From the NCBI GenBank assembly GCA_017379255.1, contig JAFNWZ010000364.1, forward strand, positions 1 to 13,797: a stretch of DNA of 13,797 bases, written 5' to 3'. Numbering within the stretch: the stretch's first letter is position 1; each line of letters opens with the position of its first letter. The DNA comes from Akkermansia sp. (GTDB lineage: Bacteria; Verrucomicrobiota; Verrucomicrobiia; Verrucomicrobiales; Akkermansiaceae). Shown here piece by piece: positions 72 to 13,797 of this stretch. The notes under the pieces are model-generated. The model saw only the letters and a program-made list of their open reading frames with translations. It did not search any database and was not told the DNA's origin. A program made the position numbers and the translations under genes.

Positions 72-749
72 TTACATCCAGCGGAACCAGTGCCAGATGA
101 AACGGCCGATGCCGCCTATGGAATACCGGCTGGCAATGAGGAGGTTCCAGATGATTTTGTACACAGGCATGGCTTGCAGCATGAGCATGGCCAGCACGGT
201 GCTGCGGGTTCGGGAGGCACTGGTGATTTCAAAGTAGTCTTTGCCGAAGAGGACAATGAGTTCAAAAGTGGCAACGGTGCAGGTGAAGAGCACGGCGCAT
301 AGCCCACTGATGGGGGAATGGCCGGCGAGCCAGCTGCTCAGCAGCGCGCCCAGCACCCCGGCCAGGGTGAAGATGCAGCAGAGTTGCCAGCGGTAGAGCG
401 TTTCGGGCCAGCAGTGGAGCACCAGGGCGGCAGTGGCAAAGTAGCACAGAGGCCCGGCCAGTATCTGCCACACGAGTCCGGCTCCGGTGAGGGAATAGCC
501 GCCGAGGGTGCATCCTTCGCAGACGGCTGCGCTGATGAGCAGCAGGAGGATGGCGCTGGTGGTCAGAGCGTGCTCCAGCAGGTATGCCGCCGTCAGCAGT
601 GCCAGGAAGAGCAGGGGCATGACGATGGGGGCCTGCAGCACCCACTCCTGGAAAGCTGGCTGGGCAGAGGCGATGGTGCCGCTGGTGGTGGCAATGAGGA
701 CGCAGGCGGCGCAGCCGAGGTGGGCGAGCGGGGTGTTGGGTGTGTTCAT
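72..749 (-). CDS. Cysteine-rich polytopic membrane protein, function unknown
   Basis: A 225-residue, very hydrophobic protein with about six membrane segments (roughly residues 11-29, 40-58, 62-76, 88-112, 121-142 and 147-168, with another possible one near 185-205). It ends in an aromatic, basic tail (FIWHWFRWM). I do not recognise a family, and the NDxxD motifs of the quinone prenyltransferase MenA are absent. The frame stays open to 923, but the ATG at 749 is chosen because its first bases form an ATGA overlap with the menE stop, which suggests translational coupling; the upstream extension is arginine/proline-rich shadow sequence. It holds about ten cysteines, including two CxxC motifs (residues 13-16 and 77-80) and a CC pair (124-125), many for a protein of this size. 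Its place behind menE hints at a link to quinones or redox, but that is inference only. Confidence 0.75.
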   Translation of the reverse strand: MNTPNTPLAHLGCAACVLIATTSGTIASAQPAFQEWVLQAPIVMPLLFLALLTAAYLLEHALTTSAILLLLISAAVCEGCTLGGYSLTGAGLVWQILAGPLCYFATAALVLHCWPETLYRWQLCCIFTLAGVLGALLSSWLAGHSPISGLCAVLFTCTVATFELIVLFGKDYFEITSASRTRSTVLAMLMLQAMPVYKIIWNLLIASRYSIGGIGRFIWHWFRWM

Positions 750-1804
750 GTGTATGCGAGAAGGAGTCTGGCGGCTTCGGCGCGGGCGATTTTGCCGGTT
801 CCGGTGCGCGGAAGCGCGGTGGGGAACAGGATATGCGGCTGGTGGTAGCGCGGGAGGTCGGCGCAGGCCTGCCGCAGGGCTGGTTCTGCTTCTGCCGGGC
901 CTTCCCAGAGCAGTGCCACGCACTGGCCCAGCACCGGGTGGGGGAGTGGAAGCGCGACGACCTGCAGCCCGGTGCGGGTCTGGAGCGCGCGCTCTATGTC
1001 CTCAGCCTGAATCTTGACGCCGCCGGAGTTGATGACGGCATCTGCCCGGCCCAAGATGCGGAAACGCCCGTCGGGGGTGATTTCGGCAAGGTCATTCGTG
1101 GCGAGGGCCTGGATGCCCAGGAAGGGGGCGTTGATTTGCAGGGTTCCTGCGGCAGAAAGAGAAACGCTGACACCGGGGAGCGGGGTGTACGATTCGCTAC
1201 GCTCCGGGCCATTGGTGGCCCGAAGGGCAATATGCGAGAGGGTCTCAGTCATTCCGTAGGATGTGTACACGCGGGTGGGCAGCTCCTGCAGCTGCTGCTC
1301 CAGAGCGGCATCTACAAAACCGCCGCCAAGCAGGAGGGTGCGAACCCGGGCGAGGCTGGCCTTTCCCCCCGGCAGTGCCAGGGTGGTGGCTGCCTGCATG
1401 GGCACCATGGGGGCAAAGTTGATGCTTTGCTGTACTGTTTCCAGCGGGGCGGAGGAGGGCTCGGTGACGATGAGGTTGAGTCCGCCCACAATGGCACGCA
1501 CCACCATCATCTGCCCGGCTATGTACCGCAGCGGCAGGCAGAGCAGTGCAGTGCTGCCGGGCTGCAGGCTGAATGCCCGGCAGGTAGCTGCGGCGCTGGC
1601 TGCCATGGCCTCTTTGGCGGCATGCAGGGGCCTGGGCTTGCCGGTGGACCCGCTGGTGTGCAGCGGCATGGTGGGGGTATCGCTCCACCATCGTGCCAGG
1701 AAATCTCCCAAATCGGCCATGATGCCGGTTTTGCCCTGCCTCCATGCAGGCAGGGTTTCGGGGGTGATGGTGCAGCCACCGATGCTGATGGCATGGGGTG
1801 GCAT
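746..1804 (-). CDS. menE: o-succinylbenzoate-CoA ligase (MenE), AMP-forming
   Basis: A 352-residue adenylate-forming enzyme (ANL superfamily). It carries the phosphate-binding loop TSGSTGKP (residues 50-57), the A5 motif YGMTET (183-188), the ribose-binding Asp in TNDLAE (Asp238), the hinge GRADAVINSGGVK (252-264) and the C-terminal catalytic Lys in PRTGTGK (Lys338). The short length, with the N-terminal part of the large domain reduced, is typical of compact MenE proteins. MenE activates o-succinylbenzoate with ATP and CoA in cytoplasmic menaquinone synthesis. Another short acyl-CoA ligase cannot be fully excluded, because no other men gene is in the window. It starts 5 bp after the PutA-like stop without a clear Shine-Dalgarno sequence and overlaps the next gene by 4 bp, so the three genes are very likely co-transcribed. 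Confidence 0.85.
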   Translation of the reverse strand: MPPHAISIGGCTITPETLPAWRQGKTGIMADLGDFLARWWSDTPTMPLHTSGSTGKPRPLHAAKEAMAASAAATCRAFSLQPGSTALLCLPLRYIAGQMMVVRAIVGGLNLIVTEPSSAPLETVQQSINFAPMVPMQAATTLALPGGKASLARVRTLLLGGGFVDAALEQQLQELPTRVYTSYGMTETLSHIALRATNGPERSESYTPLPGVSVSLSAAGTLQINAPFLGIQALATNDLAEITPDGRFRILGRADAVINSGGVKIQAEDIERALQTRTGLQVVALPLPHPVLGQCVALLWEGPAEAEPALRQACADLPRYHQPHILFPTALPRTGTGKIARAEAARLLLAYT

Positions 1805-1809
1805 GGGGC

Positions 1810-4800
1810 TTATTGGTTAGTGGTGCGCTGGGTGGTGACTACCTCACGCAGGCAGCGCAGCAGTTCAATGCGGCCGTTGGCCAGCACGGGCTCGGCGCAG
1901 AGCGCGAGACGGCAGCGGGCGGCTTTCTGCAGGGTGTTGATGGTGGCGGCAGTGTCTCGCACAAAGACCCCGGTAGTGGCCAGGGAGGGGAAGCGACTTT
2001 CAAATTCATCCCGGCTTTCTACGGAGATGATGACTCCCAGGGGTTCGAGCGCGCGAGGCATCCAGGCGCGCATGCTGGCGGTGCTCAGCTGGATATCGCA
2101 GCCGGCTTTGAGTGCGGCCATGAGCGCAATGGAGAGGTCGATATCGCTGGTGGCTTTCTCGGCGCGGATGCATAGTGCCAGCGGACGGTAGGTCAGCGTG
2201 GTGCGCTGGGCGGGGCTTTCATCCAGTACAGTGGTGATGCCGAACATGTTTTCCCACCAGTAGCCGATGGAGTCGGCTGCGGAGGAAAGACGCGTGGTGT
2301 CATTGGCTGCTGGTTTCGGGGAAAGGGACTCCCACGGGGTGAAGGCGATGTTTCTCTGCGTGGCGCGGTGTTGCGGGCGGGCGTTTTCCTGCCACTGGCA
2401 GAGGGCGGCGAGGAAGTTGTGACCTCCGCTCATGGGCGTGGTGTTTTGCCAGCCGGGGGTGGGCAGCGCTCCCGGACGGTGCTGCGGGCAGCAGTTGATG
2501 CTGATCTGGCTGGCGGCTGTCAGCTTGCACCAGAGTTCAATTTCGTGCTTGTCGCGGGAGTAGATGCCGACGGCCCGCTCCTGCGATTGCTTGCGCTGGG
2601 TGCGGCCGGCTTCCTCTGTGCTTTCCACACGGATGAGCCCGATGACGGGGACATTGTGCACAGCCTGGGCAAAGGCGCTGCCTGGCTGCACGCCCAGGCG
2701 CACTCCCGGGCTCCACACGAGGGAGCCGATTTCGTTTGTGGCGGGTTGCACCAGCCAGGATTCCTGCGGTCCCAGCTGGGTGAGCATGAATTTCTGGTCG
2801 TCGTTGAGCGGGCGTCCCAGCGGGCCGATGTTGCCGCCTTCCACCCAGCCGGGCTGGGCGGTGAGGCTGGTGACGGCATCCCGCAGGGCGTTCATGAAAT
2901 GCTGGTTGTCATATACCTCGGCATGCACATACAGAAGATGCGGGGCGGTGGGATCCTGCCCGGCGCGGGTGAAGAGGGTGCGACAGATGTCGCGGATGGC
3001 GAGCGCCCAGTCTCCCTGGGCGGAGATATAGATGCTGCTGCAGCCGCCGGTGCCGCCGAGCACGGGGCGGCCCTCTGTGGCGGCTACCATACCGTAGGTG
3101 TGTTTGGCGCTACCGTGGTAGATGAGTCCGTTGACCCGGTTGCTGGTGAGTAGTTTGCGGGCAATCTGGTTATCCAGACAGGGCAGCATCTGCAGGCGCG
3201 GGGATTCAAAGCCGGCTTCTGCCAGCAGGCCGGTGAGCCTTTCTGCCAGCAGGGCGGTGTGGACGGAAGGTTTGTAGATAACGGCGTTGCCGGTCAGCCA
3301 GGCGGCGGCTATGCCGCCCACTGCTTCCTGCAGGGGGTGGACACGCCCCGGGGCAACGATGATGACACCCAGCGGAGTGGGCACGGTGCCGTCCATGAGG
3401 CCTTCCTGCGTGATGCTGTGTTCGTAGAAGCGGCAGGCGTCTATGGCGTTGGTGAGTTCGAAATCGGCTTCTTCGATGGTGAAGCCCGCATCGCGCACCA
3501 GGAGGGAGATGAACTCCTGCCCGCGCTTCTCGAGCAGGCGGGCGGCCTGCAGCAGGTGAATGCGGCGTTCCTCCAGGGTGGGGGGCATTTGCACCGCCAC
3601 ATTTTCAGCCGTTTTCAGCGCTGTGTCCACGATGTCGAAGTCGGCTGAGCAGAAGCGGTAATCCTCCATGCCGGGGGCGGTGAGGGAGCGGTGAATGCAG
3701 AGCAGGGGCGTTTCAGTTGTTTCGCCGTTGACACGCAGGGGAATCTGGCTTTGCGGGCGTTCGGCTTCTGCCTCGGCTGCGTGGTGCAGGGCATCCATGC
3801 GCCCACGGTCGGTGATGCCGGAGAGGCGGGTGAAGGTATAGCTGCCATGGGCACCGGGGACTTCGTGGTGTTGTTCTTCGCGTCCGCTGAGGGCGGCCAG
3901 GAAGTTCTGGCGCATGCGCCCCCAGCCCATGGAGTTGGGCTCCAGTTCACCGCCGGCCGCGAGAATGCCTTCCGGGCGGCCCAGTTCCTGCACCAGGGAG
4001 AGCAGGTATGATTCGAAGCCGGCTTCGCCTCCTTCACTGGTGACCCCGGCGGAAAGGAGAACTCCTGCACCCGCCTTGGCAAGCACGCGGCCGGTGTGGT
4101 TGCTCAGGCCGGAGATGAAGCAGAACTGCGGGTTGCCGCCGCGGCCGGAGCGCCCCCAGCAGAGCAGGCTATAGGCAATGTCGAATAGATTGTGCGTGCC
4201 TACCACCGGGGTGAGCACCTTTTCCTTGGTGTCCGTGGCAGTGGCAATGAGTTGTTTGAAACGGGCTTCTGTTTCTCCCTTGTTGTGGCAGACTTCGTTG
4301 GCGGTGCCGTGGCGGTAGGTGATTTCCTTTTCTTCGTCCAGATGGCTGCCTTTGACCAGCAGGACTTTGAGCGGGGCTGCCCCCTTGGCGGCGCGGGCAT
4401 TGGCCCATTCCGTCATTTCCCGCAGCAGGGCGGGGCTTCCCTTCAGGTAAGCCGGGATTTCCAGTGCTGCATCTGCCTTGTACAGGGTGGAACCAGCCAT
4501 AGCCAGGCGGAAAGCCTCTGCCACGATGTTCATGGTGGGGGAAAGTCCGCTTTCTACTACTACGGAGCGCGGGGCTTTGCCCTGCACCGAGAGCTTCAGC
4601 AGCGGGCGCAGCTTTTCTGCCAGCGCCTTGGCGCCGGCTTCGGGGGAGTATGGGTTGAGCCCCGGGCAGAGACGCCAGGGCTGGATGACGATTCCGGCGT
4701 TTTCCTGTTTGGCGAGGATGGCTTCCAGGTGCTTGTAGTATTTTTCTGCGCTCTTGTGCCCGAATACCTGGGGAACAAGCGGATTGAGCGCCAGCCGCAG

Positions 4801-5271
4801 ACCGTCCCTGGCACATTCTTTGGCCCGCCTGGCGACTTTGTCTGCCAGGGTGGGCAGGGTAAGCTCACCGAATGTGGAGCGGAAAATGCGCTGCACTTCT
4901 GCAATGGCCGTTCCCGGCATGCTGCGGGCCGTCATCACGGCGGCCTTGAATCGCAGTTTTCCTACGGTGCTGAAAAGGGCTGGCACGCCACCATGCTCTG
5001 CCAGCAGGCGGCGCAGGTTTTCGGCTTGTTCGGCAGGGTCTGCGGCATGAAAGACGCTGCTGCAGAGCTGGCGGACAAAGGAAAGGTTCTTCTGGTCTGA
5101 AACCAGGCGGGACAGGGCGGAGAGGAGGGTCCGTTCATCTGAGCGGATGCCTTTGAGCGAGGCCAGCAGCAGCTCCTGCGCCAGCTCTGCCGCACGCTGA
5201 GCCAGCGTGCGGTCATCCCATTTGCGCTTCTTTGCTTCTGCCAGTTGTGCCTGTATGTCCAGTTCCGCCAT
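1810..5271 (-). CDS. putA: PutA-like bifunctional proline dehydrogenase/P5C dehydrogenase homologue, probable pseudoenzyme
   Basis: A 1153-residue homologue of long (actinobacterial-type) PutA. It has an alpha-helical arm (about 1-160), a PRODH barrel (about 160-440), an aldehyde dehydrogenase (ALDH) domain (about 540-955) and the C-terminal extra domain (about 1000-1153, ending in a GRIELLxxLRE motif). Standard PutA oxidises proline to glutamate via FAD and NAD. Here, by alignment from memory, the PRODH residues equivalent to E. coli Lys329, Asp370, Tyr540, Arg555 and Arg556 are Gln197, Glu240, Ser407, Ser425 and Leu426, while AYL (274-276), LVKG (305-308) and THNLFD (359-364) remain. In the ALDH domain the PWN Asn is lost (PGR, 641-643), the ETGG Glu is Gly740, the GQxC Cys is Pro774 and the ECFGPV Glu is Val871; cofactor Lys667 stays. 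The frame is open to a TTG at 5310, but the ATG at 5271 sits better against the promoter. An ordinary PutA label would overstate its activity. Confidence 0.85.
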   Translation of the reverse strand: MAELDIQAQLAEAKKRKWDDRTLAQRAAELAQELLLASLKGIRSDERTLLSALSRLVSDQKNLSFVRQLCSSVFHAADPAEQAENLRRLLAEHGGVPALFSTVGKLRFKAAVMTARSMPGTAIAEVQRIFRSTFGELTLPTLADKVARRAKECARDGLRLALNPLVPQVFGHKSAEKYYKHLEAILAKQENAGIVIQPWRLCPGLNPYSPEAGAKALAEKLRPLLKLSVQGKAPRSVVVESGLSPTMNIVAEAFRLAMAGSTLYKADAALEIPAYLKGSPALLREMTEWANARAAKGAAPLKVLLVKGSHLDEEKEITYRHGTANEVCHNKGETEARFKQLIATATDTKEKVLTPVVGTHNLFDIAYSLLCWGRSGRGGNPQFCFISGLSNHTGRVLAKAGAGVLLSAGVTSEGGEAGFESYLLSLVQELGRPEGILAAGGELEPNSMGWGRMRQNFLAALSGREEQHHEVPGAHGSYTFTRLSGITDRGRMDALHHAAEAEAERPQSQIPLRVNGETTETPLLCIHRSLTAPGMEDYRFCSADFDIVDTALKTAENVAVQMPPTLEERRIHLLQAARLLEKRGQEFISLLVRDAGFTIEEADFELTNAIDACRFYEHSITQEGLMDGTVPTPLGVIIVAPGRVHPLQEAVGGIAAAWLTGNAVIYKPSVHTALLAERLTGLLAEAGFESPRLQMLPCLDNQIARKLLTSNRVNGLIYHGSAKHTYGMVAATEGRPVLGGTGGCSSIYISAQGDWALAIRDICRTLFTRAGQDPTAPHLLYVHAEVYDNQHFMNALRDAVTSLTAQPGWVEGGNIGPLGRPLNDDQKFMLTQLGPQESWLVQPATNEIGSLVWSPGVRLGVQPGSAFAQAVHNVPVIGLIRVESTEEAGRTQRKQSQERAVGIYSRDKHEIELWCKLTAASQISINCCPQHRPGALPTPGWQNTTPMSGGHNFLAALCQWQENARPQHRATQRNIAFTPWESLSPKPAANDTTRLSSAADSIGYWWENMFGITTVLDESPAQRTTLTYRPLALCIRAEKATSDIDLSIALMAALKAGCDIQLSTASMRAWMPRALEPLGVIISVESRDEFESRFPSLATTGVFVRDTAATINTLQKAARCRLALCAEPVLANGRIELLRCLREVVTTQRTTNQ

Positions 5272-5281
5272 AAGTGGGCAT

Positions 5282-5310
5282 ATTCTACCTTGCACCGGGT
5301 GAACTGGCAA
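5282..5310 (-). promoter_or_regulatory. Predicted sigma70-type promoter of the PutA-like/menE operon
   Basis: Reading leftward, a -35 box TTGCCA (5305-5310) is separated by exactly 17 bp from a -10 box TAGAAT (5282-5287); each matches the consensus at 5 of 6 positions. Only 10 bp lie between the -10 box and the ATG at 5271, so a start site 6-8 bp downstream of the box would give a leader of only about 2-4 nt. The prediction rests on sequence match and spacing alone. Confidence 0.6.
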
Positions 5311-5350: not shown

Positions 5351-6052
5351 TTACTTCACTTCCTCCCAGTCAATCTGCCGGGGCAGCAGCTCACCGATGA
5401 GCTTGCGCAGGCGGCCGTCTGCTTCTTCCTCGCTGATGCCCAGTTCCGGTGCCCAGTAGGTGCCGACCTGGAAATAGGCCCAGCTCTGGACTCGCCCGAA
5501 CAGCAGGCGGTCTGCGATATCCTGGATGTTGCGGCCCAGGTGGGTGTGATTAATCGTTCCGTGGCCGATAAACAGGTAGTAATGGATGAATCTCAGGTGC
5601 GGGCAATTCTGGTTCTGAGTAGGCAGCTTGGAGGAGAGCCGGGTCAGTTTGATGCTTTTTCCATTGGTAAGCTCCACGGTGCTCTCTTTGCCCTGGACGT
5701 TAAGGTGCCCCTGGCTGGGAAGACAGACCTCGGGGCGGTGGATGGAGTTGTTCATTTCGCGCCCGGAATAAACGATGGAAACCTCCACGGCAGGGGTGGG
5801 CCGTTCCCACGGTACGCGCTGCAGCCGGGTGTATTTTGCTTTGCTGAAGCGCGTGTCTGCTGCCAGAATTTTTCTTTCGGCTTCGCTTTCCTGAACTTTG
5901 ATGCCATCCCACCCGGGGAGCTCGTATCCCGTGGGTAAATCGGCGGAGATGCTGGGTTCGGTCAGCCCTTGCTGCTTGGGCAGCAGGCCAATAAATGCCA
6001 GTAGTATCCCTAACAGGGCTGCCGGGAGAAAAGCTGAGAGGTTCTTTTTCAT
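5351..6052 (-). CDS. epsI: Exosortase-associated protein EpsI
   Basis: A 233-residue protein with an N-terminal hydrophobic anchor or signal segment (about residues 6-24) followed by an extracytoplasmic domain. The EpsI signature IHRPEVCLPSQG lies at residues 104-115, with the conserved Cys110 after the His-Arg-Pro. EpsI proteins accompany exosortases, either fused at the C-terminus or, as here, as a separate gene; their exact biochemical role is not settled. The ATG at 6052 overlaps the exosortase stop as ATGA and has an upstream AAGGA in the exosortase 3' end, so the start is well supported and the two proteins are probably made in a coupled way. The open frame reaching 6682 is an unrelated reading across the exosortase gene. 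Confidence 0.88.
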   Translation of the reverse strand: MKKNLSAFLPAALLGILLAFIGLLPKQQGLTEPSISADLPTGYELPGWDGIKVQESEAERKILAADTRFSKAKYTRLQRVPWERPTPAVEVSIVYSGREMNNSIHRPEVCLPSQGHLNVQGKESTVELTNGKSIKLTRLSSKLPTQNQNCPHLRFIHYYLFIGHGTINHTHLGRNIQDIADRLLFGRVQSWAYFQVGTYWAPELGISEEEADGRLRKLIGELLPRQIDWEEVK

Positions 6053-7014
6053 ATCTGGGATTCCTTTTCTGTGTTGGTGGTCTGTCTGCGGGATACAGTG
6101 CGTCGGCGTTTCAGGAAGGGGACTTCGCCTGCCAGCAGACCATGGAGCAGCATGAGCCCCAGCAGGCTGGCCGGAAAGAAGAAAAGCAACCCGGACCAGT
6201 CGTGCCAGGTTTTGGAGGCAAAGACGGGGTTGATGTGTTCTGCGAAGATGAAGATGCTGGCCACGCGGAATGCATTGGCCGCAATGGAGAGCGGAATGGC
6301 ACTGAACGCCAGGATGAGCCGTTTCCACAGAGCAAGGCCGTCTGCCACATACGCCCATGCGGTGGAAAGCATGATGAGCGCCATGAGGGAACGCATCCCG
6401 GAGCAGCCGCCTGCAATGTTGAATGTGTCGCAGTTGCCGGAGGTCAGGGAGATATTGGTGCCTTCTACCATGGTTTCTACCCCGAAGAGCCCTGCGCCCC
6501 AGTGGGCGGCTTTCGTGGCCAGAATCTGCATGCCGGTGGTGGCTTGCTGGAAACCTGGCAGAGGAATGCTCATCCACAGGAAGAACAGGGGGAACGCACA
6601 GCGCCAGGCGGCCTTGGTGCCCCAGTAATACCAGATTGCCCCGGTCAGCATGAACGGGATGCCGCCGATGGCGATGCGCCACTGCTGGGTGTGCACGGCC
6701 ATGAGGAAGAATAATCCGCCCAGGCCTACCAGCCAGAGCCCGCGTTTGCTGCCGCTGAACGTGACGTTCTGGAGCTTACCGCAGCTGTGTACCAGCAGGT
6801 AGATGCAGATGAAGGGAACAAGCCAGCCGTGCTCGTAGTCGTTCATGGCGTTCCAGGACAGCATGAGCACATCGGTCGCGCTGCTTGTCCCTTCCGTAAA
6901 GGAGGGGTAGATGCATACGGCTCCGATGACGATTAACAGATACAGCGCCAGCCCTGCCCATGAGAGCGGAGAAAGACTGTTCCAGAATGTGTTTTTTTGT
7001 TCCTGCGCGTTCAA
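6049..7014 (-). CDS. Exosortase (exosortase/archaeosortase family transpeptidase)
   Basis: A 321-residue integral membrane protein with about eight helices. It has the family's active-site residues in order: Cys204 in AGGCSGMRSL, Arg250 in NAFRV, and His271 in the WHDW segment. The N-terminal HGWLVPFICIYLL segment (62-74) matches the conserved exosortase SHG-type motif. Exosortases cleave and re-anchor exported proteins that carry a PEP-CTERM-like C-terminal tail at the cytoplasmic membrane. All catalytic residues are present, so it should be active. The start is uncertain: the longest frame begins with TTG at 7014, no Shine-Dalgarno sequence is visible, and the next in-frame Met is residue 51, too far in because it would remove the first helix. 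No protein complete in this window carries a recognisable PEP-CTERM tail, so its substrates lie elsewhere. Which exosortase subfamily it belongs to cannot be settled by eye. Confidence 0.93.
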   Translation of the reverse strand: MNAQEQKNTFWNSLSPLSWAGLALYLLIVIGAVCIYPSFTEGTSSATDVLMLSWNAMNDYEHGWLVPFICIYLLVHSCGKLQNVTFSGSKRGLWLVGLGGLFFLMAVHTQQWRIAIGGIPFMLTGAIWYYWGTKAAWRCAFPLFFLWMSIPLPGFQQATTGMQILATKAAHWGAGLFGVETMVEGTNISLTSGNCDTFNIAGGCSGMRSLMALIMLSTAWAYVADGLALWKRLILAFSAIPLSIAANAFRVASIFIFAEHINPVFASKTWHDWSGLLFFFPASLLGLMLLHGLLAGEVPFLKRRRTVSRRQTTNTEKESQI

Positions 7015-8184: not shown

Positions 8185-9567
8185 ATGAAGCGTTTACCCT
8201 TTGTCCTGTTTTGTGCCATTCTCGTGTGTGCCTGTTATGCGCAGGAATACCTGGGAATGGCACAGCGTTTTGTGGAGGAACAGGTGAGTAAGGAGTCCGG
8301 GGTTCAGGTGGATAGCCTGCAGGCAAAGGCAGAAGCAGGTGATGTGGAAGCGGCGCGCCGGTTATCAGCCTATTACCTGAGCCGGGGGAAGGATGAAGCG
8401 GCCTCCGCTTTCCGATGGGCTGTTCATGCTGCAGAGGGTGGTGATGCCATGGGGGCGATGAATGCAGGTATCTGCTGTTACGCAGGCGTGGGAACGGCGC
8501 AGGATGATGCCTTGGCGGCTGAATGGTTTGAAAAGGCAGTCAGGCTCGGCTGTGACCGGGCTTTGAATCCCCTGTCGTACCTGTACGCAGAGGGGCGCGG
8601 TGTGAAGCAGGATTTGACCAAAGCCCTGCAGCTGGCAGAACTCGCCTGCCAGCGGGAAGTACCGTTTGCGGATGAGCGCCTGGCAGAGTTTTATTTCAAG
8701 GGGCAGGGCGTACCGCAGGACTTGGATAAGGCGGAATCTATCCTGAAGCAGCATCTGGAAAAATTTCCGGGGGATGGTTCGGCAGCGAATTTTCTGGCGG
8801 GTGTCATCCAGGCGGGTGATGCCGGACGGCAGAGACGGCACGAAGTGGTTGATTGGCTGAAAAAAGCCGCAGATTGGGGAGAACCAGCCGCTATGGCCTC
8901 TTTGGCCCAGGCCTACTTTGATGGGGCTGTGGTGGAAAAGGATGATGCCATGGCAGCCGCATACACGCAGAAAGCTGCTGCTGCCGGGGTGCCCGGGGCT
9001 CTGGGGAGTCTGGCTCTGTTCTATTTTCAGGGGACAGGCGTGCCGAAGGATGTTGAAAAGGCCATCAGTTTGTGCCGGCAGGCCATGGCTGAAGAGCCGG
9101 ATTCGGCGCTGGCGTACCGCAATCTGGCGGGGATTCTGAGTGTATCTGCGCAGAGTGATGCGCAGTGGGCAGAAGTGGAGCAGCTGCTGCTGAAAGCCGC
9201 TGAATTGAATGATGCAGAGGTCATGCTGGAGCTGGCTCTGGAATATTCCTCGGATGATGATATGTTCCGCGAGAATGTGCCCGCTGCCATTCACTGGTGC
9301 GAGCGCGCCCTGCAGGCATATCCCGATGCTGCGGACCTGCATTGCCTGCTGGCGGATAATCTGCTGAAAGCGGGAGATGATGCGGGCACTCAGGAACGCG
9401 CGTATACCCATTATGCCGTTGCTGCAGCGCAGTGCTATCCCCGTGCCGTACGCATGCTGGCGCGCGCCTGGGCTGAGGGCTGGGCGTACAAGCAGGGGGA
9501 ACGCCAGCCTGCTAATCCTGAAATGGCTGCCGTAATGGAGGCTACGGCCCGGGAGCTGGAAAAGTGA
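8185..9567 (+). CDS. Exported Sel1-like (TPR-type) repeat protein
   Basis: A 460-residue protein with a signal sequence (basic start, hydrophobic residues about 5-18) and, after it, about nine degenerate Sel1-like repeats of 36-40 residues. The clearest carry the GxGV-x-x-D pattern: YAGVGTAQDDALAAEWFEKA (99-118), YAEGRGVKQD (134-143), YFKGQGVPQD (170-179), YFDGAVVEKD (244-253) and YFQGTGVPKD (280-289). Sel1 repeats form alpha-helical solenoids that mediate protein-protein contacts; no catalytic domain is visible. The signal end VCAC (14-17) could be a lipobox with an unusual Cys at -2, making a lipoprotein; cleavage after CYA (17-19) by signal peptidase I is the alternative. The ATG at 8185 is preceded by AAAGG. 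The gene stands alone, bounded by the prs terminator and the convergent sulfatase gene, so its partner cannot be deduced. Confidence 0.9.
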   Translation: MKRLPFVLFCAILVCACYAQEYLGMAQRFVEEQVSKESGVQVDSLQAKAEAGDVEAARRLSAYYLSRGKDEAASAFRWAVHAAEGGDAMGAMNAGICCYAGVGTAQDDALAAEWFEKAVRLGCDRALNPLSYLYAEGRGVKQDLTKALQLAELACQREVPFADERLAEFYFKGQGVPQDLDKAESILKQHLEKFPGDGSAANFLAGVIQAGDAGRQRRHEVVDWLKKAADWGEPAAMASLAQAYFDGAVVEKDDAMAAAYTQKAAAAGVPGALGSLALFYFQGTGVPKDVEKAISLCRQAMAEEPDSALAYRNLAGILSVSAQSDAQWAEVEQLLLKAAELNDAEVMLELALEYSSDDDMFRENVPAAIHWCERALQAYPDAADLHCLLADNLLKAGDDAGTQERAYTHYAVAAAQCYPRAVRMLARAWAEGWAYKQGERQPANPEMAAVMEATARELEK

Positions 9568-9604: not shown

Positions 9605-11389
9605 TTACGGGTATATGTCTCCGGCGGTGAGTTCCTGCAGGCGCTTGCGGAGCTCGGCTGTTTTGCCGGGCTGCAGCGGAGCGAGATTACGCTGCTCGCC
9701 TGGGTCGGTGTTCAGGTCGTACAGCTGTTCGCCCTTTCCCTGACGGTCGGCGCGTCCGCGCCCGTAGTCAGGGATATATTTGTATTGTCCGCTGCGCAGG
9801 GCATAGCGTGGGCCTTCAAATGCCTGGGTGACTAAATTGATTCGTCCGGTCTGGGAGAGCCCCAGCAGGGCAGTAAGGTGGTTTTCGCTGTCTCTGAGGC
9901 TGTTATTGGGTGTTTGTATACCGCAAAGGGTGGCGAGACTTCGGGGGATATCCATCTGGCAGACGAGGGCAGGGCTTGTTCCTGGTGTAATGTTACCCGG
10001 CCAGGAAACGATGAAGGGTACGCGTGTGCCGCCCTCAAACAGGGAATATTTGCCGCCACGCCAGGGGTGGGCGGGCTGGTGGCTGGCGCAGGCTTCTCTT
10101 GCGCCGTCTTCGTAGCCGTCGGAGATGACGGGGCCGTTGTCGCTGGTGAAGATGATGAGGGTATCCTCCGGCTTGTAGCCGCTTTTTTCAAGCGCTTTCA
10201 TAAGGCGGCCCAGGGAGTCATCCATCTGCAGGGTGGCATCCCCCCGGATGCCGAGGTGGCTTTTGCCCCGGAAACGGTTGTGCGGGTCGCGCGGCACGTG
10301 GATATCATTAGTGCAGAAGTAGAGAAAGAGCGGTTTCCCGGCGCAATCGGCAATGAAGCGTTCGCCCGCGGCGGTAATGTCATCTGCAATGTCCTGGTCT
10401 TTCCAGAGGGCGGCGGTGCCGCCGCGCATGTGGCCGATGCGGGAGATGCCGTCGATGATGGTACAGGCGTGCTGTTTGTCGCTGGGGCGTCCCCAGGGTT
10501 TGAGCAGTTCCGGGTGCGTGGCGGCGGTGGGGATGCCCGGGTAGGCCCGGCCACGGTAATTGACCTCGATGGGGTCTTGCGGGTCGAGGTTTTTCACCTG
10601 GCCGTTTTCGACATAGACGCAGGGCACGCGGTCACCCGTTGCGGCCATGATGAAGGAGTAGTCGAAACCGATGTCGGCCAGGGCGGGGGAGATGGGTTTG
10701 TTCCAATCGATGTTGCCAGCGCCAAGCCCCAGATGCCATTTGCCGATGGCGGCGGTGCGGTAGCCCGCCTGCTGCATGAGGGTGCCGAGTGTGGCGGCTT
10801 TATCGCGCGTGGGGATGATGAGGGCTGCATCTCCCGGCAGGATACCGGTGCCGCGCTGCCGCCAGGCATATTGCCCGGTAAGCATGGAGTAGCGCGAGGG
10901 CGTGCACACGGAGTTGGTGCTGTGGGCATCGGTGAAGAGCAGCCCTTGGTCGGCCAGTTTCTGCACGTTGGGGCAGGGTACTCCGCCCTTGTTGCCATAG
11001 GCTGTGGTGTCGTTGTAGCCCAGGTCATCTGCCACGAAGAGAAGGATGGCTTTTGGTGGGGTAAGGGGGGAACGTGGAGTCCCGTCCGTGTCGGAGCAGA
11101 GCAGGTACGCAGCGCTGGCGACAGCCATGCCTTTTTCCACAGCGTCTTTGATATGCGGTTTGACGGCTTCCAGCGGTTTTTCCATGGCATCGGCACTATG
11201 TTGAATTCCCTTGCGGATGGCGGTTTCAACGGTTTTGAGCCATACTGGTTCGGGCGTGGGAGCTTCCTGTTTCGTAGGAGTGGGGGTATCCTCGAATGAT
11301 TTTTCCAGCATATCATCCAGCAGGCCAGGGGAGGGCTGCGTTAAAAGGAAAAACAGTGAGAAAAGGATGACGAGGGTACGGTTGCGCAT
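9605..11389 (-). CDS. Secreted sulfatase (formylglycine-dependent, arylsulfatase-like)
   Basis: A 594-residue type I sulfatase that hydrolyses sulfate esters, probably of host or environmental glycans, in the periplasm or at the surface; the exact substrate cannot be read from the sequence. The metal-binding DD is at residues 121-122 (VADDLGYND). The Cys-type formylglycine motif CTPSR is at 162-166, so Cys162 must be oxidised by a maturase not in this window. GKWHLG (216-221), His364 in DIHVP, TSDNG (415-419) and GGKYSLFEGGTRVPF (445-459) complete the active site, so it should be active. An N-terminal hydrophobic segment (5-17) is a signal peptide or anchor, with no clear cleavage site. Between it and the domain (about 111 onward) lies an extra segment of roughly 90 residues: a Pro/Thr/Glu-rich stretch and then a charged helical part. 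The upstream bases show no Shine-Dalgarno sequence. It is probably transcribed alone. Confidence 0.93.
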   Translation of the reverse strand: MRNRTLVILFSLFFLLTQPSPGLLDDMLEKSFEDTPTPTKQEAPTPEPVWLKTVETAIRKGIQHSADAMEKPLEAVKPHIKDAVEKGMAVASAAYLLCSDTDGTPRSPLTPPKAILLFVADDLGYNDTTAYGNKGGVPCPNVQKLADQGLLFTDAHSTNSVCTPSRYSMLTGQYAWRQRGTGILPGDAALIIPTRDKAATLGTLMQQAGYRTAAIGKWHLGLGAGNIDWNKPISPALADIGFDYSFIMAATGDRVPCVYVENGQVKNLDPQDPIEVNYRGRAYPGIPTAATHPELLKPWGRPSDKQHACTIIDGISRIGHMRGGTAALWKDQDIADDITAAGERFIADCAGKPLFLYFCTNDIHVPRDPHNRFRGKSHLGIRGDATLQMDDSLGRLMKALEKSGYKPEDTLIIFTSDNGPVISDGYEDGAREACASHQPAHPWRGGKYSLFEGGTRVPFIVSWPGNITPGTSPALVCQMDIPRSLATLCGIQTPNNSLRDSENHLTALLGLSQTGRINLVTQAFEGPRYALRSGQYKYIPDYGRGRADRQGKGEQLYDLNTDPGEQRNLAPLQPGKTAELRKRLQELTAGDIYP

Positions 11390-12572: not shown

Positions 12573-13797
12573 TTATTTGTTTAAATCTTCGGGGTTAGTG
12601 TGTTTGTGGAATTTCGGGGAAGTGTAGATGACGAAGGCAAAGAAGAGGGCAACCAGCACCACCCACACGACGGGGAACACGGCTCCGGGTTCGCCATTGA
12701 GGATGTTGACGACCTGGCTGCTCTGCTTCACAAAGATATTCTGGTAGAGCCAGGAGGCAAAGATGACGAGCAGGATGCTTGGGGTGACCCAGCGGATGAT
12801 GAATCCCAGTCCGCGGGGCAGGGGGATGGCCGCACCGAGTTTCAGTTCCTCGATACCGTTCTTTGTGCCCCATACCACATTGAACATGGTGAAGAAGAGG
12901 CAGGAGGTGATGTAGAGGAACATGGTGCCGAACCAGAAGTCCATGGTGTCCAGAGCCATGAGCCCCTCCGTGAACCAGCCGACCATGAGGGTGCCCACGG
13001 TCACGAGGAAAGCCACGAGCGAGACGCTCTGCATGCGGCGCAACTGCCAGAACTCTTCCAGGAAGGCCACGGAAGGCTGCAGCATGGAAATGGCACTGGT
13101 GATGGCGCCGATGAAGAGCAGCACGAAGAAGAGCGTGCCGAATACCTGGCCGCCCGGCATGTAGTGGAACACCTGGGGAAGTACGTTGAAGCCCAGCCCG
13201 AATGTACCGCAGCCGGCAGCTGCCACTACACCCAGCAGCGCCACAGCGGCGGGGATGATCATCATGCCGGCCATGCCTACTTCGATGGCCTCGTTAGCGG
13301 CATTGGCGGTGAGGGAGGAAAGGGCGATGTCCTTGCGGCGGCGCACATAGCTGGCGTAGGAGCACACCGTGCCGAAGCCGATGGAAAGGGAGAAGAATAC
13401 CTGCCCGGCAGCGGTGAGCCACAGCTCGGGGTTCAGCAGCCCCTGGGTGAGGGAAATGTACTTTTCTTCCACTTTCTTGCCAGGGTTGGCAGACTGGATG
13501 CGGGAAACGAGCTCGGCCTTCTGTTCGGTTGTGGCGTTGACCGGTACCATTTCCACTTCTTTTCCATCTACCAGAAGCATGGTCTTGGTGGGGTTCCACA
13601 TGTAACCGAGACCCTGGCTCACGTTGCGCTCAGGCTGGTTGATATCGGGCGTGCCGAGGGTGAGCACGCGGGCCAGAATGATGAATGCGGTGATGAAGAG
13701 CAGGGGCATGCTCCATTTGCAGAACCATTCAATGCCCTTGCCGATGCCGCGGAAGATGATGTACATATTGGCCAGGATGGCCAGGGCGAAGAAGACC
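12573..13797 (-). CDS. NSS-family sodium-dependent amino-acid transporter, 5' part missing
   Basis: The C-terminal 407 or so residues of a neurotransmitter:sodium symporter-family transporter. The frame stays open past the Met at 13766 to the window edge (codons VFFALAILAN precede it), so the real start, with the first helices and the unwound TM1 site, lies outside. Family hallmarks, numbered from that Met, are GIEWFCKWSMPLLF (11-24) leading into TM5, GQVFFSLSIGFG (121-132) in TM6, and LFFVLLFIGAITSAISMLQP (212-231) in TM8, which contributes to the sodium sites. About eight helices remain. It imports an amino acid with Na+ across the inner membrane; MetP-like methionine/alanine uptake is suggested by the small subunit gene downstream, but the substrate is not proven. 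An unusual hydrophilic insertion lies between TM5 and TM6 (about residues 60-106). Confidence 0.92.
   Translation of the reverse strand, partial: VFFALAILANMYIIFRGIGKGIEWFCKWSMPLLFITAFIILARVLTLGTPDINQPERNVSQGLGYMWNPTKTMLLVDGKEVEMVPVNATTEQKAELVSRIQSANPGKKVEEKYISLTQGLLNPELWLTAAGQVFFSLSIGFGTVCSYASYVRRRKDIALSSLTANAANEAIEVGMAGMMIIPAAVALLGVVAAAGCGTFGLGFNVLPQVFHYMPGGQVFGTLFFVLLFIGAITSAISMLQPSVAFLEEFWQLRRMQSVSLVAFLVTVGTLMVGWFTEGLMALDTMDFWFGTMFLYITSCLFFTMFNVVWGTKNGIEELKLGAAIPLPRGLGFIIRWVTPSILLVIFASWLYQNIFVKQSSQVVNILNGEPGAVFPVVWVVLVALFFAFVIYTSPKFHKHTNPEDLNK

Follow-up and report, generated by a model that had tools for sequence, protein, structure and literature searches.

A PutA homologue of Akkermansia without the catalytic residues of either domain, a candidate pseudoenzyme kept by purifying selection

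Among solved structures, the top match by sequence to the Akkermansia protein analysed here is the PutA of Corynebacterium freiburgense (5UX5), which we take to be a class 3B PutA with a C-terminal domain; compared with it, the Akkermansia protein (hereafter pseudo-PutA) has neither set of catalytic residues. Human ALDH16A1 is described as a pseudoenzyme of the ALDH superfamily that lacks the whole catalytic triad (PMC10650815). It resembles pseudo-PutA in this respect, but it is no PutA and lacks a PRODH half, whereas pseudo-PutA has lost two unrelated active sites and intermediates of the loss exist. Some PutAs are reported to carry a non-catalytic ALDH-superfamily domain (PMC13155685), so that a dead ALDH fold is retained for structure within a PutA; in those proteins the catalytic GSALDH domain is still active, whereas in pseudo-PutA the catalytic domain itself is dead. 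The PutA of Ralstonia solanacearum is reported to have a second, regulatory role responsive to ligand and cofactors (PMC9132996). It is thus a PutA with a non-enzymatic role, as proposed here for pseudo-PutA, but it is also an active enzyme and binds DNA, and no DNA-binding domain was detected by Pfam in pseudo-PutA. In the titles and abstract openings surveyed, a body of literature with most subscription journals outside its coverage, no inactive PutA homologue was found.

The window, that is, the whole 13,797-nucleotide stretch of an Akkermansia sp. contig that was analysed, encodes pseudo-PutA on its minus strand with the following domains.

1810..5310, minus strand: pseudo-PutA gene, an open reading frame of 1166 amino acids from TTG at 5310 or 1153 amino acids from ATG at 5271
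4051..4830, minus strand: PRODH (Pro_dh) domain, residues 161-420 (Pfam PF01619, 62.5 bits against a cut-off of 27)
2440..3645, minus strand: ALDH (Aldedh) domain, residues 556-957 (Pfam PF00171, 137 bits)
1813..2430, minus strand: C-terminal domain, residues 961-1166, within the structural match to 5UX5 and conserved among the inactive relatives described below

The database relatives that are 96% identical to the window protein are 1153 amino acids long. One such protein comes from an Akkermansia MAG of water buffalo, and further relatives come from sheep, goat, yak and water deer. The predicted structure (pLDDT 89.7) has PutA structures as its best structural matches, and this confident model suggests that the protein folds like PutA. 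Homology, the PRODH-ALDH domain order and the PutA fold are all present in the window protein, which, on alignment, is a PutA by descent that fails the residue tests defining the enzyme.

Reference numbering is that of E. coli PutA (Ec; L084), and the alignment included other relatives. Window residues are counted from the TTG; an earlier sequence-only reading of this DNA counted from the ATG, which is residue 14 of the longer frame. The aligned ALDH positions are as follows.

3340..3342, minus strand: Val657, at the position of the catalytic Asn (Ec779)
3052..3054, minus strand: Gly753, at the position of the catalytic Glu (Ec883)
2950..2952, minus strand: Pro787, at the position of the nucleophile Cys (Ec917)
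2659..2661, minus strand: Val884, at the position of the ribose-binding Glu (Ec1018)

None of the Asn, Glu and Cys residues of the GSALDH test is therefore present. The landmarks named in the sequence-only reading (LTGNAVIYKP, YHGS, GTGG and GQDPTA) were all found, and its claim that Glu and Cys are lost was borne out by the alignment with E. coli PutA and relatives, in which E883 pairs with Gly753 (740 in that reading) and C917 with Pro787 (774), the spacing of 34 residues being identical in E. coli PutA and the window protein. The ribose-binding Glu is also gone, as it had stated (E1018 to Val884, formerly 871). The loss of the Asn stood as well, but its placement in the PGR at 641-643 was one register off: Pro659 pairs with the Pro following PWNF (Ec781), and the conserved KP lysine lies 23 residues away in both proteins, so PWN corresponds to Gly655-Arg656-Val657 (GRV) and the true site is Val657 (644 in the former numbering), not Arg643. 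A search for a Cys at the nucleophile position found none, the nearest preceding ones being Cys776 and Cys757 and the next following one Cys928. Asn, Glu, Cys and the ribose-binding Glu are each conserved in 16/16 intact members of the genus and 30/30 of the family members fetched. Of the 56 members of the window's clade, none has the Glu, the Cys or the ribose-binding Glu (one row is gapped at Glu) and one has the Asn, and all four are absent from the database relatives listed (0/120). Judged from these alignments, the ALDH losses are not due to chance. In S. meliloti PutA, a change of the Cys to Ser is reported to disable GSALDH by itself (PMC12398946), and from the established mechanism it would indeed be impossible, as the sequence-only reading had argued, for this domain to carry out the thiohemiacetal reaction.

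That reading was correct on catalytic loss in the ALDH domain but did not note that the PRODH residues are replaced too.

4681..4683, minus strand: Gln210, at the position of PRODH Lys329 (alignment, as for all five lines)
4552..4554, minus strand: Glu253, at the position of PRODH Asp370
4360..4362, minus strand: Leu317, at the position of PRODH Arg431
4051..4053, minus strand: Ser420, at the position of PRODH Tyr540
3994..3999, minus strand: Ser438-Leu439, at the positions of the proline-binding Arg555-Arg556

Every residue of the PRODH test (Lys329, Asp370, Arg431, Tyr540, Arg555 and Arg556) is thus replaced in the window protein. Across its clade of 56, Lys329, Asp370, Arg431, Tyr540 and Arg556 are each found in 0/56, Arg555 is looser (7/56), and the Tyr540 site varies among T, S, V and A; at the barrel mouth, Lys434 (54/56), Glu559 (53/56), His487 (48/56) and Asn488 (42/56) are largely retained. 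Lys329 is described as the proposed base, and Arg555 and Arg556 as holding the proline carboxylate (PMC10651016); a B. japonicum PutA mutant with the carboxylate-binding Arg changed to Met is reported to be without PRODH activity (PMC5786444). Roles in FAD binding have been reported for Glu559 and Arg431 (PMC3718742). Glu559 is largely retained, but Arg431 and Gln404 are among the barrel positions with a stated or presumed FAD contact that have been lost, which disfavours normal FAD binding. Since the PRODH site is lost besides that of ALDH, the whole protein and not one domain appears to have left proline catabolism. We infer that pseudo-PutA would oxidise neither proline nor P5C and would have a non-catalytic role.

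The genus was surveyed using 76 genomes, one per species. A PutA match was present in 73/76, with no copy in G169, G216 and G226; the gene is therefore dispensable in some species. Residue sorting divided the 73 copies into 16 intact, one intermediate (G132) and 56 dead, the last forming the clade of the window (the dead clade); identity to intact relatives is only about 30%. When eight residues were scored (Lys329, Asp370, Arg431, Tyr540, Arg556, Asn779, Glu883 and Cys917), all were retained in 16/16 intact congeners and 30/30 fetched family members, and none in 55 of the 56 dead-clade copies (L109 retains Asn only, and two rows are gapped at some sites) or in any of the database relatives listed (120/120 with zero). 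Frames of at least 1144 amino acids are found in 53/56 dead-clade genomes; the other three comprise two cut at contig ends and one, the putA of G189 (L024), split in two pieces.

A second proline dehydrogenase was not found in the 76 genus genomes by Pro_dh search, which gave a single match per genome, putA itself, in 72/76 and zero in G169, G216, G226 and G177; the putA copy of G177 is diverged and was detected by protein search only. A search with a P5C dehydrogenase model revealed a second ALDH place in 51/56 dead-clade genomes and in 0/16 intact ones (the two rows of G100 being pieces of one gene), and the window's genome is one of the five dead-clade genomes without it. Ten of these second-ALDH proteins were translated (nine from the dead clade and one from G226) and have about 455-490 amino acids; at L135:2812-4176 (minus strand) and similar loci the second ALDH has about 460 amino acids and apparently its catalytic motifs. 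For two of them the benzaldehyde dehydrogenase model was the best NCBIfam match, below its cut-off, and the solved structures matched by one include those of class 3 and of fatty aldehyde dehydrogenases. Judged from these matches, the second ALDH is unlikely to stand in for a P5C dehydrogenase.

Partial losses were found outside the dead clade. The G132 intermediate (L118:5953-9522, minus strand; P0122/P0123) has intact PRODH residues and has lost the ALDH Asn and Glu with Cys retained. The database proteins P0135, P0142 and P0166 have lost the ALDH Asn, Glu and Cys together with Lys329, Asp370 and Tyr540, and retain Arg431 and Arg556. In the trees, intact forms are outermost, followed by P0122/P0123, then P0135/P0142/P0166 and then the dead clade, and the join of P0135/P0142/P0166 with the dead clade has a support of 99/99. 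Loss of the ALDH site is thus likely, though not certain, to have preceded that of PRODH in graded steps. The order is only likely because a long stem leads to the dead clade (three trees give it 1.43, 1.67 and 2.12 changes per site), and because two of three alternative trees were rejected at 0.05 (AU p 0.0237 and 0.012) but the third was not (0.0639), the groups having been picked post hoc with the tree already seen. Two otherwise intact PutAs also carry single changes, P0151 with Ala at the ALDH Glu position and P0162 with Asn at Arg555, which are possibly separate losses.

Pairwise dN/dS was calculated by the simple NG86 method, and values from pairs whose dS exceeds about 1 suffer from saturation and carry little weight. 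The ratio was 0.044-0.348 in 14 dead-clade pairs (one pair at 0.348) and 0.046-0.115 in seven intact pairs with usable dS (an eighth was unusable). Pooled by domain, the values for intact copies (8 pairs) were 0.035 for PRODH, 0.040 for ALDH, 0.067 for the arm and 0.103 for the C-terminal domain, against 0.080, 0.091, 0.061 and 0.072 for dead copies (11 pairs); the pairs L013-L014 and L009-L105 depart from this order, the C-terminal domain being highest. The dead catalytic domains are therefore about twofold less constrained than those of intact kin, and the non-catalytic domains are equally constrained. Column conservation was 0.741 (PRODH), 0.717 (ALDH), 0.556 (arm) and 0.513 (C-terminal) in intact copies and 0.616, 0.588, 0.63 and 0.622, respectively, in dead ones. 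By both measures, constraint has moved away from the catalytic domains, the most protected ones in intact copies, and in dead copies it is at least equally strong in the arm and C-terminal domains. The sequence-only reading had taken the intact long frame as a sign of a retained, different function; this is supported, since the ALDH domain is mechanistically disabled and yet the frame is under purifying selection.

As in a pseudoenzyme, catalytic residues are lost relative to the active homologue and the protein is maintained by selection. Because both active sites are lost yet evolution preserves the protein, a new job is probable, and we favour, with moderate confidence, a pseudoenzyme derived from PutA that selection maintains for a non-catalytic role as scaffold or ligand sensor. 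In the most likely mechanism, the PRODH barrel, whose remodelled mouth still exceeds the rest of its domain in conservation (values below), would bind a ligand, which may be a nucleotide, and a partner would be contacted by the arm and C-terminal surfaces; pseudo-PutA, probably co-expressed with exosortase genes in most genomes, would then act as scaffold or sensor.

The strongest competitor, which we consider rather unlikely, is a neofunctionalised enzyme in which a remodelled PRODH barrel mouth acts on a different substrate by different chemistry, with the ALDH half serving structure only. It would account for 90 columns in which at least 90% of the dead clade share a residue that differs from the intact one or is unconserved among intact copies (among them Arg213, Glu284, Pro286, Pro790 and His796), and for the retention of Lys434 and Glu559. 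The barrel mouth, defined from strand ends of the predicted model, is also conserved above its domain in the dead clade (0.685 against 0.602 for the rest, permutation p 0.0055; 0.575 at the opposite end). The ALDH site, at 0.588, equals its domain (0.588, p 0.49). The ALDH site is thus without its special constraint, and the PRODH mouth is remodelled yet above the rest of its domain. However, mouth conservation is far under the 0.921 of intact PutA, several replacements are variable, as at the Tyr540 site, and no conserved neighbour hints at a substrate.

Another reading makes pseudo-PutA an accessory to the exosortase/EpsI surface-sorting system, with selection acting through that operon. The genes next to it in the window are the following.

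5351..6055 (start approximate), minus strand: EpsI-like gene (DUF3485; Pfam PF11984), upstream of pseudo-putA
6049..7014, minus strand: exosortase gene, upstream (Pfam PF09721 and NCBIfam exosortase models)
746..1804, minus strand: AMP-binding, MenE-like gene, 352 amino acids, 5 bases downstream of the pseudo-PutA stop

An exosortase and 21 PEP-CTERM proteins have been reported in A. muciniphila (PMC3048395). A same-strand exosortase gene lies directly upstream in 38/56 dead-clade genomes, with an EpsI-sized gap in 36/38, and none adjoins putA in the flanking sequence examined from the 16 intact genomes and G132. Of the other dead-clade genomes, three are unjudgeable at contig ends, the two earliest-branching (G071 and G156) have pseudo-PutA elsewhere, away from the exosortase, and thirteen, all of one subclade (G175, G107, G002, G153, G162, G084, G177, G181, G224, G225, G227, G228 and G229), keep pseudo-PutA without an exosortase match, whereas such a match is present in most of the genus. 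Moreover, at the six loci examined (G028, G195, G132, G071, G156 and G169), divergent Prs, exosortase and EpsI-like genes form a block without PutA. The link is common, not obligate; an obligate component of the system is ruled out by the thirteen genomes, and a dedicated accessory role seems improbable. Only in the 11 genomes of the window's subclade does the MenE-like gene follow putA, and a link with it was rejected on that ground.

A functionless gene in slow decay would fit the three genomes without a copy, the split frame of G189 and the relaxed catalytic domains, but dN/dS well under 1 in 14/14 pairs, the near-universal full-length frames (only one exception being other than a contig-end cut) and non-catalytic domains constrained as in intact kin make it very improbable. 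Misalignment, with the catalytic residues elsewhere and the enzyme active, could be suspected at about 30% identity and is practically eliminated by concordant spacings and flanking motifs, intermediates that bridge the alignment and the lack of a Cys near the nucleophile position.

Returning to the pseudoenzyme, a fuller history is tentative and, as a whole, possible at best: across a whole radiation of Akkermansia, a new kind of protein may have arisen from a bifunctional, channelling PutA that lost ALDH and then PRODH and in most species came to lie behind the exosortase genes, acting today as a ligand-gated scaffold or as a new enzyme with a rebuilt pocket in the barrel, with living relatives showing the steps. 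Both active sites of a large enzyme have been lost clade-wide with no back-up PRODH found, and, since partial-loss forms survive and selection is strong, what remains once an enzyme stops being an enzyme is testable with natural intermediates. In databases, proteins of this group appear under names such as 'proline dehydrogenase family protein' or 'bifunctional proline dehydrogenase/L-glutamate gamma-semialdehyde dehydrogenase', and metabolic models of animal-gut Akkermansia could therefore wrongly assign proline catabolism.

Further genes of the window encode a Sel1-repeat protein (8185-9567, plus strand), a sulfatase (9605-11389, minus strand) and a sodium:neurotransmitter-type symporter (12573-13766, minus strand).
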